This document shows, in pieces, positions 23,785-27,729 of a DNA stretch of 27,729 nt. Origin of the DNA: a virus; the IMG/VR virus record IMGVR_UViG_3300027844_001213, positions 1-27,729 of that record, one strand, 5' to 3'. Position numbers and translations under genes: made by a program. Each line of letters starts with the position of its first letter. The first letter of the stretch is position 1. The notes beneath the pieces were generated by a model that saw only the letters and a list, made by a program, of their open reading frames with translations, was not told the origin of the DNA and did no database searches.

Positions 23785-24011
23785 AAGCTACACAAGAAAT
23801 CCTAGAGAACCTTCATGGAGTTCTGGCAGAAGAACTGATGGCTAGAATTCAGTCGGGAACTGCACTACCCTCGGATATGGCAAATGCAATTAAGTTCTTA
23901 AAAGATAATCACATAGAAGGTCTTCCAGTGATTGGATCACCATTAGGAAACCTTGTGGAGTCGATGCCCTTTCCAACCCGAAGTAAACTAATTGAGAATT
24001 ATGCGAACTAA
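23781..24011 (+). CDS. terS: Terminase small subunit (DNA maturase A), T7 gp18-like
   Basis: The 76-residue protein is near the size of T7 gp18 (89). Residues 5-45 form helices with QEILENLHGVLAEELMARIQ, then GTALPSDMANAIKFLKDN, a pattern repeated in small terminases of T7-like and many marine phages. A proline-rich C-terminal arm follows (GLPVIGSPLGNLVESMPFP). The small subunit recognises concatemer DNA and regulates the large subunit. The four-base ATGA overlap upstream and the 11-base overlap downstream place it in the packaging block, as in T7 (genes 18, 18.5, 18.7, 19). Confidence 0.9.
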   Translation: MKATQEILENLHGVLAEELMARIQSGTALPSDMANAIKFLKDNHIEGLPVIGSPLGNLVESMPFPTRSKLIENYAN

Positions 24012-24363
24012 GAATTACTATATAGTAATACCAATTCTGTTCTTTCTTGGTATCAGTGTTTTTTTGACTACCTTTAGTAGGTTTGCATACGCAAAAGAAG
24101 AAAAAACTCTTAATTTTAATACTAAAAGCATAAGAATCCTTTGGATGGCATGTTTTAAAGGAGGTCACCAAGGTCAACAAAAGATTCCTAGTGATGCAGT
24201 TGCACTTGTGTGTGACTGTGTTATTGATAAAGCTAGAACTCAATTGTCTTTTGAGTATACTACTCGTAATGCAGGTCCAATAATGAAGAAAGTTTATAGG
24301 AGATACTTGCAACAATGTAAGGAAGAAGTTGACTTAACACCAAAACCCTCACTTAGTGCTTAA
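24001..24363 (+). CDS. Secreted or membrane-anchored four-cysteine protein between terS and terL
   Basis: I choose ATG 24001 over a TTG at 23992, giving 120 residues. Residues 1-31 look like a signal peptide: RTK, a hydrophobic core (YIVIPILFFLGISVFL), then FAYA before KEE, a good signal peptidase I site. The mature part has four cysteines: Cys51, the CDC pair Cys71/Cys73, and Cys106. It ends in a Pro/Lys tail. In T7 the spanin genes 18.5/18.7 lie between terS and terL, so position suggests a cell-envelope role at lysis. However, the fold looks compact and cysteine-linked, not the long coiled coil of Rz, so I do not call it a spanin. Forty-nine bases without a clear signal separate it from terL. 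Confidence 0.8.
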   Translation: MRTKNYYIVIPILFFLGISVFLTTFSRFAYAKEEKTLNFNTKSIRILWMACFKGGHQGQQKIPSDAVALVCDCVIDKARTQLSFEYTTRNAGPIMKKVYRRYLQQCKEEVDLTPKPSLSA

Positions 24364-24412: not shown

Positions 24413-26092
24413 ATGATACAAGAGGAACTTAGAGACCTGCGAAACTTTCTGTACGTTGTATGGCACCATCTAGGCCTTCCTGAGCCTACTCCAGTACAGT
24501 ATGATATGGCTACCTACCTAAACTCCAGCGAGAAGCGTATTGTGGTCCAAGCATTTCGAGGTGCAGGGAAAAGCTATATCACTTCTGCCTTTGCTTGTCA
24601 CCAGTTGTATTTGAATCCCGAAATTAAGATTCTGGTGGTTAGTGCATCCAAGATTAGAGCAGATGACTTTTCTACGTTTACGATGAGACTGATCCAAGAA
24701 CTTCCTATTCTTCAACACCTTGTTCCGGGTGATGGTCAGCGATCCTCTAAAATCTCATTTGATGTAAGACCCGCTAAAGCGTCACACTCTCCCTCTGTTA
24801 AATCCGCTGGAATCACAGGACAACTTGCCGGTAGCCGAGCAGACATCGTTATTGCAGATGATGTAGAAATACCGAATAACTCCATGACCCAGACTATGAG
24901 AGATAAAATCTCTGAAGCAGTGAAAGAGTTTGACGCTATCTTGAAACCTGATGGACGAATCATTTATCTTGGGACTCCTCAAACAGAGATGTCCCTCTAT
25001 GAGTTACTTCCAGAAAGAGGATATAAAGTACGAATATGGCCAGCTAGGTACCCATCGAATCTAACCAAATATTCTAATAAGCTGAGTCCCTCTATATATA
25101 CTAGTATAGAAAAGGAACCAGATTTGGTTGGTAAACCTACTGATCCCCTGAGATTTGATGACCTTGATCTTATGGAACGTGAGCTTTCTTATGGAAGAAG
25201 TGGCTTTGCCCTTCAGTTTATGCTGGATACCTCACTGAGTGACCAAAATAGGTTTCCACTTAAGTTAAGTGATCTTGTGGTTATGGATGTTGATATAGAT
25301 AAGGCACCTGAAAAGGTTATTTGGGGTCGAGATAAAGATAACTATATTGATATTCCTAATGTTGGTCTACCCGGAGATTACTTCTATGGACCCATAAGTA
25401 CTGCTGGTGAATATATCGACTATACTGGATCGGTTCTTGCAGTTGACCCCTCTGGAAGAGGAAAAGATGAAACAGCATATTGTATTATCAAAATGCTGAA
25501 TGGTACTCTTTACTGTAGTGACTTTGGTGGAATAGAAGGAGGATATAGTAATGATGTTCTTGGAGTGCTTTCGGTTCTTGCAAGAAAACATAAAGTAAAT
25601 ATGATTCTGGTTGAGTCAAACTTTGGTGATGGAATGTTTAGTGAACTCCTGAAACCGGTGCTAACCAAGATTTATCCATGTAGCATTGAAGAAGTACGAC
25701 ATAGTACTCAAAAAGAAAAGAGAATAATTGATGTTCTGGAACCGGTTATGAACCAACATAGACTGGTTATGGATAGAACTGCACTTCAAAATGACTATAC
25801 CAGTGTTCAGAAGTATCCTCCAGAAGCACAACTTAAATATATGTTGGCACACCAGATGACCAGAATTACAAAAGATCGTGGTGCGTTGGTTCATGATGAC
25901 CGTCTTGATGTTCTTGCAATGGCAGTTCAATATTGGGTTGACCAAATGGCAGCAGATGTAGATACTGAAATGAAAGACCGTAAAAGTAATCTTCTTGATA
26001 AAGAGTTGGAACGGTTTGTTGAAAATGCGGTTACTCTTGGAATTGGAAATTCTATAGTAGGACCAGATTTGTCCGTACCAGTTTGGTCCTAA
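24413..26092 (+). CDS. terL: Terminase large subunit (DNA maturase B), T7 gp19 family
   Basis: The 559-residue protein (T7 gp19 has 586) is the packaging motor ATPase and nuclease. The ATPase domain shows Walker A QAFRGAGKS (residues 46-54; Lys53), then ISFDVRPAKASHSPSVKS, and Walker B ADIVIADDVE (143-152). A coupling motif IIYLGTPQTEM lies at 184-193. The nuclease domain has VLAVDPSGRGKDET (341-354; Asp345), ESNFGDGMF (401-409) and HDDRLDVLAM (494-503), giving the acidic metal ligands. These blocks match T7 gp19 in order and wording. No strong ribosome site is visible upstream. Two bases separate it from the first Fe-S carrier gene, so those genes are read through from the late operon. Confidence 0.98.
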   Translation: MIQEELRDLRNFLYVVWHHLGLPEPTPVQYDMATYLNSSEKRIVVQAFRGAGKSYITSAFACHQLYLNPEIKILVVSASKIRADDFSTFTMRLIQELPILQHLVPGDGQRSSKISFDVRPAKASHSPSVKSAGITGQLAGSRADIVIADDVEIPNNSMTQTMRDKISEAVKEFDAILKPDGRIIYLGTPQTEMSLYELLPERGYKVRIWPARYPSNLTKYSNKLSPSIYTSIEKEPDLVGKPTDPLRFDDLDLMERELSYGRSGFALQFMLDTSLSDQNRFPLKLSDLVVMDVDIDKAPEKVIWGRDKDNYIDIPNVGLPGDYFYGPISTAGEYIDYTGSVLAVDPSGRGKDETAYCIIKMLNGTLYCSDFGGIEGGYSNDVLGVLSVLARKHKVNMILVESNFGDGMFSELLKPVLTKIYPCSIEEVRHSTQKEKRIIDVLEPVMNQHRLVMDRTALQNDYTSVQKYPPEAQLKYMLAHQMTRITKDRGALVHDDRLDVLAMAVQYWVDQMAADVDTEMKDRKSNLLDKELERFVENAVTLGIGNSIVGPDLSVPVWS

Positions 26093-26094
26093 TA

Positions 26095-26463
26095 ATGATT
26101 CGTTTGACAGAAAAGGCCGCTAAAAAGATAGTGAGTATTATGAAAGAACAAAAAGTTTCTAATGATACAGTAGTACGAGTAGGTGTCAAGGGAGGTGGTT
26201 GTTCTGGATTTACGTATACAGTAGATTTTGAAAGCTATAAAGGAAAATTTGATTTGAAATTTAATTCATTTGGATTAGGTCTTGTAGTAGATAAGAAAAG
26301 TCATTTGTATATTAAAGATACAGAAATTGATTGGTCAGATACTTTAAATGATAGAGGATTAAAATTTAATAATCCGTCAGCAAAGGGTTCATGTGGTTGT
26401 CGGACTTCATTCATGTATGAACATTTGGAGATTAAAAATGAAACAGGTCCAAGCTGGATGTGA
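26095..26463 (+). CDS. A-type Fe-S carrier, IscA/SufA/HesB family (first copy)
   Basis: ATG 26095 is preferred to a TTG at 26083 inside terL; it yields 122 residues. A-type carriers bind and deliver Fe-S clusters through three cysteines, and all three are present at canonical spacing: Cys36 in GGGCSGFTY and Cys100/Cys102 in GSCGCRTSF (E. coli IscA uses 35, 99 and 101). The FNNPSAKGSCGC block is family-typical. The protein has a short extra C-terminal tail after the CGC motif (about 15 residues). It is two bases after terL and overlaps the second carrier gene by 26 bases. GC content is low (about 31% over 26101-26400 by hand count), like the phage around it. Confidence 0.95.
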   Translation: MIRLTEKAAKKIVSIMKEQKVSNDTVVRVGVKGGGCSGFTYTVDFESYKGKFDLKFNSFGLGLVVDKKSHLYIKDTEIDWSDTLNDRGLKFNNPSAKGSCGCRTSFMYEHLEIKNETGPSWM

Positions 26464-26842
26464 ACTTAAAATTTCTGAAAAGGCAGCAAATGTTTTTAAG
26501 GAAATGATTGAAGATGAAAATAAGAATATCGAAAATTCATATTTACGAGTAGGTGCAAATGCAGGTGGTTGTTCTGGATGGAAATATAGTTTAGATGTTG
26601 AAGATAAAGTTAAACCAGAAGATTTAGTTTTTACACAGAATAATATTAAATTGGTAGTAGATGGCTACATACTTAATGATATAATTGGAGATGTAGAAGT
26701 AGATTATAAAATAGGAAATTTAGTAGAACAAGGATTTGTTTTTAAAAGATTGAAGTATGAACATGTCTGTGGATGTGGAGAAAGTTTCACACCAATAAAG
26801 GATATTGTGGCAGATGGTAAACAATATTTAGGCTGGAAATAA
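26438..26842 (+). CDS. A-type Fe-S carrier, IscA/HesB family (second, divergent copy)
   Basis: ATG 26438 is chosen, inside the end of the first carrier; an earlier in-frame ATG at 26393 would overlap further and add 15 residues with no family likeness. The 134-residue protein keeps the three ligand cysteines: Cys45 in AGGCSGWKY and Cys111/Cys113 in VCGCGESF. It differs from the first copy in most other positions, lacks the NP motif before CGC, has an additional Cys8, and has a C-terminal extension ending YLGWK. The family assignment is firm. The two copies are too different to be a recent duplication; whether they form a heterodimer, as ISCA1/ISCA2 do in mitochondria, is open. It overlaps the iscU ATG by one base. 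Confidence 0.94.
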   Translation: MKQVQAGCELKISEKAANVFKEMIEDENKNIENSYLRVGANAGGCSGWKYSLDVEDKVKPEDLVFTQNNIKLVVDGYILNDIIGDVEVDYKIGNLVEQGFVFKRLKYEHVCGCGESFTPIKDIVADGKQYLGWK

Positions 26843-27225
26843 TGGCTTACAGCGAAAAGGTACTTGATCACTATGAAAAACCGAGAAATATTGGTAGTTT
26901 GGATAGTAGGAATGCTTCTGTTGGCACTGGTCTTGTCGGTGCTCCAGAATGTGGAGATGTTATGAAACTTCAGATCAAGGTTGAGAACAATCGGATCATA
27001 GATGCGAAATTCAAGACCTTTGGATGTGGTAGTGCTATTGCATCTTCTTCTCTTGCAACCGAGTGGGTGAAGGGCAAGACACTGAACGAGGCTATGACCA
27101 TTAGAAACACGGAGATTGTCGAAGAACTCTCGCTTCCACCCGTGAAAATACACTGCTCGGTGCTGGCAGAAGATGCGATTAAAGCAGCAATCACCGACTA
27201 TAAATCTAGGAGTCTTGATATTTAG
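26842..27225 (+). CDS. iscU: IscU Fe-S cluster assembly scaffold
   Basis: The 127-residue protein is nearly full length against E. coli IscU (128) and very similar throughout. It holds Cys37 and Asp39 in VGAPECGDVMKLQIKV, Cys62 in FGCGSAIASSSL, and His104-Cys105 after the LPPVK motif (98-102), the site recognised by the HscA chaperone. IscU builds 2Fe-2S clusters from sulfur supplied by the desulfurase IscS and passes them on with HscA/HscB. No desulfurase, ferredoxin or chaperone is in the window, so host partners would be needed. GC is about 46% over 26881-27180 by hand count, against 31% in the first carrier gene, suggesting a separate or later origin. Its ATG overlaps the previous stop (TAATG). 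Confidence 0.98.
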   Translation: MAYSEKVLDHYEKPRNIGSLDSRNASVGTGLVGAPECGDVMKLQIKVENNRIIDAKFKTFGCGSAIASSSLATEWVKGKTLNEAMTIRNTEIVEELSLPPVKIHCSVLAEDAIKAAITDYKSRSLDI

Positions 27226-27235
27226 GAGTAAAAAT

Positions 27236-27358
27236 ATGTTACCCTATCGCTATATGGATTTTAGAGGTTTCCCCCATAGGGGTTTTAAGGGCCGTCTCAC
27301 ACGCGCACATCACGCGGGGGTGTGGGGGGGTACCCGCGGGTCACGCAGGGACACGTAG
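27236..27358 (+). CDS. Possible 40-residue peptide with a strong ribosome site
   Basis: ATG 27236 follows AGGAG (27224-27228) by seven bases, one of the best ribosome sites in the window. The frame reads MLPYRYMDFRGFPHRGFKG, then enters the GC-rich zone and ends at TAG 27356-27358 within the first 32-bp spaced repeat. The second half (HHAGVWGGTRGSRRDT) looks like translated repeat DNA. It may be a real small gene, or the remnant of a longer gene cut by the GC-rich segment. No family is recognised. Confidence 0.3.
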   Translation: MLPYRYMDFRGFPHRGFKGRLTRAHHAGVWGGTRGSRRDT

Positions 27359-27401
27359 GCGAGCCACGTGGGTCACGCAGGGACACGTAGCCGCACACGA
27401 G
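27338..27401 (+). repeat. Two direct repeats spaced by 32 bp (left, degenerate group)
   Basis: A block containing TCACGCAGGGACACGTAG occurs at 27341-27358 and again at 27373-27390, exactly 32 bp apart; with three preceding G residues the match is 21 bp. A weaker relative (TCACGCGGGGGTGTG) lies at 27310-27324. The core CAGGGACAC is shared with the right-hand array, so these are diverged members of the same family. Confidence 0.85.
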
Positions 27402-27451
27402 GCAAACCGCTGCCATTGGGAGCCGTTTGTTACGTTAGTGAGGGCCATAAA

Positions 27452-27589
27452 ATGACGTTTGTTATCGTAAGTTTATTTCTGGTTTTATCTGTTTTTTTGT
27501 CACGTGCTATCGTAACATCTAGCCTCGCGTCACACGCGGGTACGTACAGGGACATGAGCGGACATGCAGAGACACATACAGGGACATGA
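27452..27589 (+). CDS. Doubtful 45-residue peptide with one hydrophobic helix
   Basis: The frame begins at ATG 27452 with a possible GAGG site about nine bases upstream. Its first 16 residues are strongly hydrophobic (FVIVSLFLVLSVFL), like a membrane anchor, but the second half runs into the 32-bp repeats (TYRDMSGHAETHTGT). It could be a tiny membrane peptide or a chance frame in the T-rich island. Confidence 0.2.
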   Translation: MTFVIVSLFLVLSVFLSRAIVTSSLASHAGTYRDMSGHAETHTGT

Positions 27590-27729
27590 GCGGACATGCA
27601 TGGACACATACAGGGACATGAGCGGACATGCAGGGACACATACTTGAGCAAGCAGGGACATGCAGGGACACATACTTGAGCAAGCAGGGACATGCAGGGA
27701 CACATACTTGAGCAAGCAGGGACATGCAG
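27546..27729 (+). repeat. 32-bp tandem repeat array running off the window edge
   Basis: Five full units and one cut unit lie head to tail with an exact 32-bp period: 27546-27577, 27578-27609, 27610-27641, 27642-27673, 27674-27705 and 27706-27729 (24 bp seen). The first three (type A) begin ACAGGGACATGAGC and differ from each other by one or two bases. The last three (type B) begin ACTTGAGCAAGCA and are identical over their visible length. Both types share the right half, GGACATGCAGGGACACAT. There is no spacer, so this is not a CRISPR array. Because 32 is not a multiple of three, frames through it change each unit. Confidence 0.98.

Follow-up and report, generated by a model that had tools for sequence, protein, structure and literature searches.

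A two-carrier and IscU iron-sulfur cassette of probable SAR324 ancestry beside the terminase gene of a T7-like phage

Directly behind the large terminase gene of a T7-like phage lie three genes encoding two distinct A-type iron-sulfur (Fe-S) carriers (IscA1 and IscA2) and a complete IscU scaffold protein, and the closest cellular relatives of all three, as judged by sequence comparison, are in the SAR324 phylum. We consider it likely that this cassette is a phage-borne ISC scaffold-and-delivery module put together from three SAR324 genes, its two carriers acting as a relay in a SAR324 host.

The cassette and its genomic setting

The window analyzed here is the whole of IMG/VR record IMGVR_UViG_3300027844_001213 (27,729 bp, IMG/VR linear class), which is likely a fragment of a phage genome. 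It appears to represent the late half of a T7-like genome, with genes for the portal, scaffold, capsid, tail tubes, internal virion proteins, fibre and endolysin as well as terS and terL. The T7-type TerL together with the portal, head and tail genes identifies a T7-like phage (Autographivirales); a T7-type RNA polymerase (PF00940) is present in relatives, the early region lying outside this fragment. TerL matches PF22530 (E=5.1e-41) and PHROG 38 (E=1.3e-112) and is 60% identical to DNA maturase B of Roseobacter phage CRP-227. Scans of the 27,729-bp record for tRNAs and Rfam families returned none. The cassette and its neighbor are laid out as follows:

24413 to 26092, plus strand: terL, T7-type terminase large subunit (DNA maturase B), directly 5' of the cassette
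26095 to 26463, plus strand: iscA1, first A-type carrier, 122 aa (PF01521; SAR324 carrier-1 lineage)
26438 to 26463, plus strand: 26-nt overlap of iscA1 and iscA2, kept in nearly all viral contigs with the pair
26438 to 26842, plus strand: iscA2, second A-type carrier, 134 aa (PF01521; SAR324 carrier-2 lineage)
26842 to 27225, plus strand: iscU, Fe-S scaffold, 127 aa (TIGR01999)

The three genes do overlap one another, as the initial annotation of this sequence had it: the iscA2 ATG (26438) lies 26 nt inside iscA1, and the iscU ATG (26842) makes a 1-nt overlap with iscA2. Its statement that they follow terL with no gap has to be adjusted slightly, as the terL stop codon occupies 26090-26092 and the iscA1 ATG is at 26095, leaving 2 nt between them. 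A search of viral genomes for the order terL-iscA-iscA-iscU, which that annotation had proposed as a check, found the junction again at 99.8-99.9% identity in two other IMG/VR records, one of which (L002) matches throughout and the other (L082) into iscU, within which it stops (the two have different metagenome ids, from samples that are possibly not fully independent). Because these two assembled records have the same junction, a chimeric assembly with host DNA is unlikely, and that explanation, along with contamination, was discarded. All three genes are intact and, judged by pN/pS, under purifying selection (medians of 0.25, 0.27 and 0.18, with every comparison <0.4). A promoter scan of the cassette gave as many matches as shuffled sequences and no terminator stood out in a scan around it; because neither signal stands out, we infer a late operon from position and spacing. 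One candidate terminator, CCCCAUAGGGG-UUUU near 27270, 3' of iscU, was rejected, having no support from the scan or from folding against shuffles.

The surroundings of the cassette have features of their own. An ORF at 23992-24363, between terS and terL, has a signal-like N-terminus and several cysteines and found no match in a family search (Pfam, PHROG); T7-like relatives have similar small exported-looking ORFs near IscU (e.g., L381:1458-1790). On the 3' side of iscU, positions 27226-27540 have a GC content of ~0.54 vs. 0.40 in the rest of the phage, and L002 is the sole match to this stretch among the loci compared. The record ends in a 32/64-bp tandem repeat (27545-27729, unit GGACATGCAGGGACACATACTTGAGCAAGCAG) that L002 has too; the repeat is perhaps near the genome terminus, or perhaps the cause of an assembly break.

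Family scores and ligand residues agree on two distinct carriers and a complete IscU beside terL, as had been proposed from the sequence at the outset. IscA1 and IscA2 match PF01521 (E=5.9e-16, 59.1 bits, and E=1.8e-11, 44.7 bits; cut-off 26.3) and score 103.2 and 83.9 bits against TIGR00049 (cut-off 58.8), and IscU matches PF01592 (E=9.4e-53) and passes the TIGR01999 IscU equivalog (213.1 bits vs. a cut-off of 192.4). Both carriers score well under the 150.6, 136.2 and 117 bits of TIGR02011, TIGR01997 and PRK13623, and because the IscA, SufA and ErpA equivalog cut-offs are not reached, we name both proteins A-type carriers only; the curated models likewise assign neither to ATC-I or ATC-II. 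The ligands listed in the initial annotation are all present and correctly numbered: Cys36, Cys100 and Cys102 of IscA1 are invariant in 53 viral homologues, Cys45, Cys111 and Cys113 of IscA2 in 39 (the last two cysteines forming C-G-C in each carrier), and Cys37, Asp39, Cys62, His104 and Cys105 of IscU, together with its LPPVK motif (98-102), in 101. IscU aligns over its length to the solved IscU 1q48/1r9p (E=2e-60), and both carriers align with IscA and SufA structures. The fold of IscA1 is read from its sequence alone; for IscA2, the predicted structure (mean pLDDT 78) has the IscA fold, its best PDB matches being IscA 1r94 and 1x0g (E ~2e-7) and including an IscA that holds a [2Fe-2S] cluster.

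SAR324 relatives of the three proteins

SAR324 viruses have been predicted computationally in earlier work (PMC10224230). Here, IscA1 finds matches in 38 of 52 SAR324-phylum genomes at up to 181 bits and is up to 70% identical to SAR324 proteins over all 122 residues, the PSWM tail included. IscA2 scores 97-138 bits in 36 of the 52, with up to 59% identity, and the best SAR324 match to IscU reaches 232 bits and 87% identity. Against the Gammaproteobacteria and Pseudomonadota samples, which may include few SAR86 genomes, the scores are lower throughout: none of 399 Pseudomonadota genomes matched IscA1 at E<=1e-32, the best match to IscA2 in the same 399 was 68 bits (39% identity at most), and the best match to IscU in 369 Gammaproteobacteria was 208.5 bits (80% identity). 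Seven further genomes gave IscA2 scores of <=58.6 bits.

In the carrier tree, IscA2 and SAR324 carrier 2 form one clade (support 100), and IscA1 and SAR324 carrier 1 form another (support 94). Because each carrier groups with its own SAR324 paralog, the pair is not the product of a duplication within phages, a possibility that was excluded on this ground. The IscU tree is poorly resolved, a single clade of virus and SAR324 being neither required nor rejected (p-AU 0.395), and with too few columns the IscU phylogeny was dropped as host evidence by itself.

The homologues of iscA1, iscA2 and iscU lie at separate loci in the SAR324 genomes inspected (gene names at these loci were read from translations, some of them backed by sequence matches). 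The isc operon in these genomes runs iscR-iscS-iscU-hscB-hscA, without iscA; carrier 1 adjoins a ferredoxin gene and carrier 2 adjoins a gene for a CGFS glutaredoxin-rhodanese fusion. Because the SAR324 homologues lie apart, the phage cluster appears to gather three scattered host genes. One SAR324 genome has a second iscU outside the isc operon (locus L419, G001:C76, 8042-8422), which might be a paralog or might stem from a binning error.

Taken together with their scores, the three genes make a SAR324 bacterium the most likely natural host. This reading is drawn from the three host-derived genes, and the present host could differ from SAR324, because such genes can pass between phages. A search for terL in the 52 SAR324 genomes found none.

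Spread and make-up of the carrier pair

Adjacent iscA1 and iscA2 genes occur in 71 viral loci, which amount to at least 57 contigs when loci of the same contig are merged, and extending the search with the IscA2 alignment added at least one more contig above 60% identity (L428). The 26-nt overlap is present in nearly all of the 57, and is shorter in one sub-lineage. In 33 of the 57, iscU lies no more than 220 nt downstream of the pair; in 15 others it lies 0.3-1.6 kb upstream. A T4-type gp23 capsid gene is found in four or more of the pair contigs, other pair contigs have different backgrounds with class II ribonucleotide reductase (RNR), ThyX and glutaredoxin genes nearby, and many T7-like relatives encode IscU near terS and terL either by itself or together with another type of carrier. 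Among named phage records, those with IscU matches at 71-72% are unclear or fragmentary, and none of them is a T7-like relative with the trio.

Several contigs have further content of note. A 177 kb T4-like contig (L154, IMGVR_UViG_3300020399_000132) holds the iscA pair, iscU and 15 radical-SAM matches, many of the latter clustered at 11-23 kb. A tryptophan-halogenase family gene comes right after iscA2 in L105 (10413-12068) and also in L097 and L106. Two short viral contigs (L042 and L048) have two IscU copies each, with a third type of carrier before one or both.

Within the cassette, GC3 is 0.41 for iscU vs. 0.20 and 0.16 for the carriers, and iscU and the carrier pair show unlike divergence from other viral copies. 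Because of these differences the trio looks mosaic, the pair probably coming from one pool and iscU from another. We lean toward a history in which two unlinked SAR324 paralogs were brought together a single time, were locked by the overlap and were then passed on as one piece among T4-like, T7-like and other SAR324 phages, joining a separately acquired iscU; the result would be an Fe-S delivery relay specific to phages, and would also provide a gene marker for phages of an uncultured phylum. The initial annotation was right that there are two distinct carriers and an IscU, and missed that all three genes point to SAR324, the mosaic look of the cassette and the conserved overlapping pair, which is common to T4-like phages as well.

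Proposed function and relation to known systems

Searches (tblastn) for IscS, IscR, HscA, HscB and ferredoxin found no match in any viral locus searched; as a positive control, the same five matched 34 to 77 of 80 cellular loci. A search for the glutaredoxin fusion, run without a cellular control, likewise found no match in the viral loci. With IscS, HscA, HscB and Fdx absent beside IscU, this is not a complete ISC system, and within the viral stretches searched the phages appear to carry only the scaffold and delivery part. The early remark that no desulfurase is present extends from the record to the cassette-bearing viral loci and to four 43-48 kb relatives; therefore, the module is most sensibly read as dependent on host IscS.

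We propose that the three proteins would be made together late in infection through translational coupling, and that phage IscU would accept sulfur from host IscS and build [2Fe-2S] clusters, served by host HscA and HscB, whose recognition motif (LPPVK, recognized by HscA) it has kept. IscU would then hand clusters to the two carriers, and these on to host or phage apo-enzymes. Because the carriers stem from distinct host paralogs, they may form a two-step relay rather than a redundant pair, by analogy with the order IscU, ATC-II, ATC-I, target drawn from E. coli carrier genetics (Vinella et al., 2009, PMC2682760). The phage would probably profit from this, as host respiration and other Fe-S enzymes would stay supplied during the shut-off of host protein synthesis.

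The clients themselves can be narrowed to some degree. It had been suggested that Fe-S enzymes be sought upstream in this genome and that RNR activase might be among them. Neither the record (that is, the late half) nor four T7-like relatives yielded an Fe-S client enzyme, and RNR activase is without support and was dropped, because the 43-48 kb T7-like relatives carry class II, B12-dependent RNR. Radical-SAM clients were also sought, and none was found in the four 43-48 kb T7-like relatives with IscU. Because these relatives have no radical-SAM match and a B12-type RNR, we hold with modest confidence that host enzymes (e.g., respiratory ones) are the main clients in this phage, and phage radical-SAM enzymes may be further clients where the pair is carried by T4-like phages.

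A cassette that serves phage-encoded Fe-S enzymes specifically, and not those of the host, would fit the 177 kb contig with its pair, IscU and 15 radical-SAM matches, and a similar 183 kb genome has been reported (PMC5332604); with the class of RNR in the relatives and the lack of a radical-SAM match in the four T7-like relatives or in most smaller contigs, we judge this unlikely. Somewhat less probable still is that the proteins bring no net new supply, recycling or protecting clusters or else cutting host flux by competing for IscS: only the acceptor half is present, IscS, HscA, HscB and ferredoxin being absent from the viral loci searched, but a decoy needs no Asp39 and would not need two full carriers of different host lineages, and the ligands and LPPVK are invariant in 101 viral IscU proteins.

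The origin of the genes might also be read otherwise. For a gammaproteobacterial host such as SAR86 speaks the placement of viral IscU with gammaproteobacterial and SAR86 sequences in PMC5332604, but each of the three proteins has higher scores in SAR324 than in the Gammaproteobacteria and Pseudomonadota samples, and the 80 best GTDB matches to IscU include no record named as SAR86, so that we regard such a host as improbable. It is scarcely credible that the cassette is recombination baggage (passing host fragments without a selected function) or a misassembly: the mosaic look given by a GC3 of 0.41 next to 0.20 and 0.16 and by the unlike divergence would suit it, but the junction is shared by two other records, the 26-nt overlap extends over 57 contigs and pN/pS stays below 0.4.

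If the cassette is indeed a SAR324-derived delivery module, it offers a sequence handle on SAR324 viruses, there being at least 57 contigs with the carrier pair, and the viral IscU copies earlier assigned to gammaproteobacteria or SAR86 look nearer to SAR324 once SAR324 genomes are included. Several phage lineages have retained the half of the pathway for scaffolding and delivery and rely on the host for chaperones and sulfur, a division suggesting that infection is limited by cluster delivery.

Our search of the open literature turned up no report that connects viral Fe-S genes with SAR324, none that describes an overlapping two-carrier pair and none that ties SAR324 to an isolated phage. The cassette resembles the bacterial ISC system (PMC2682760) in its families, ligands, LPPVK motif and combination of a scaffold with two carrier lineages, and differs from it in being phage-encoded, in having overlapping scaffold and carrier genes and in being without IscR, IscS, HscA, HscB and ferredoxin. 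HTVC019P-type pelagiphages and T7-like roseophages (Autographivirales) share a terminase 58-62% identical and the T7-like late gene order, but their named records have no match to IscU or the carriers. HMO-2011-type phages carry iscU and erpA (PMC9038755) and an OM43 phage group carries sufA (PMC10580990); as far as the consulted portions of these two reports go, these other phage groups have a scaffold and/or a single carrier and no two-carrier trio. Nishimura et al. (2017, PMC5332604) described marine phages, T4-like ones among others, that carry genes for ATC and/or IscU, with many radical-SAM genes in some of the genomes, and presented an IscU tree with 21 reference genomes; in the part of that paper at hand, the text has no SAR324, two-carrier pair, conserved overlap or T7-like terL-linked trio, and its assignment of viral IscU to gammaproteobacteria and SAR86 differs from the SAR324 assignment made here. 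Because earlier papers (PMC5332604, PMC9038755) already report iscU and A-type carrier genes in phages, the kind of system is known and combining a scaffold with a carrier has precedent; what is new here is the probable SAR324 origin and the build of the cassette.
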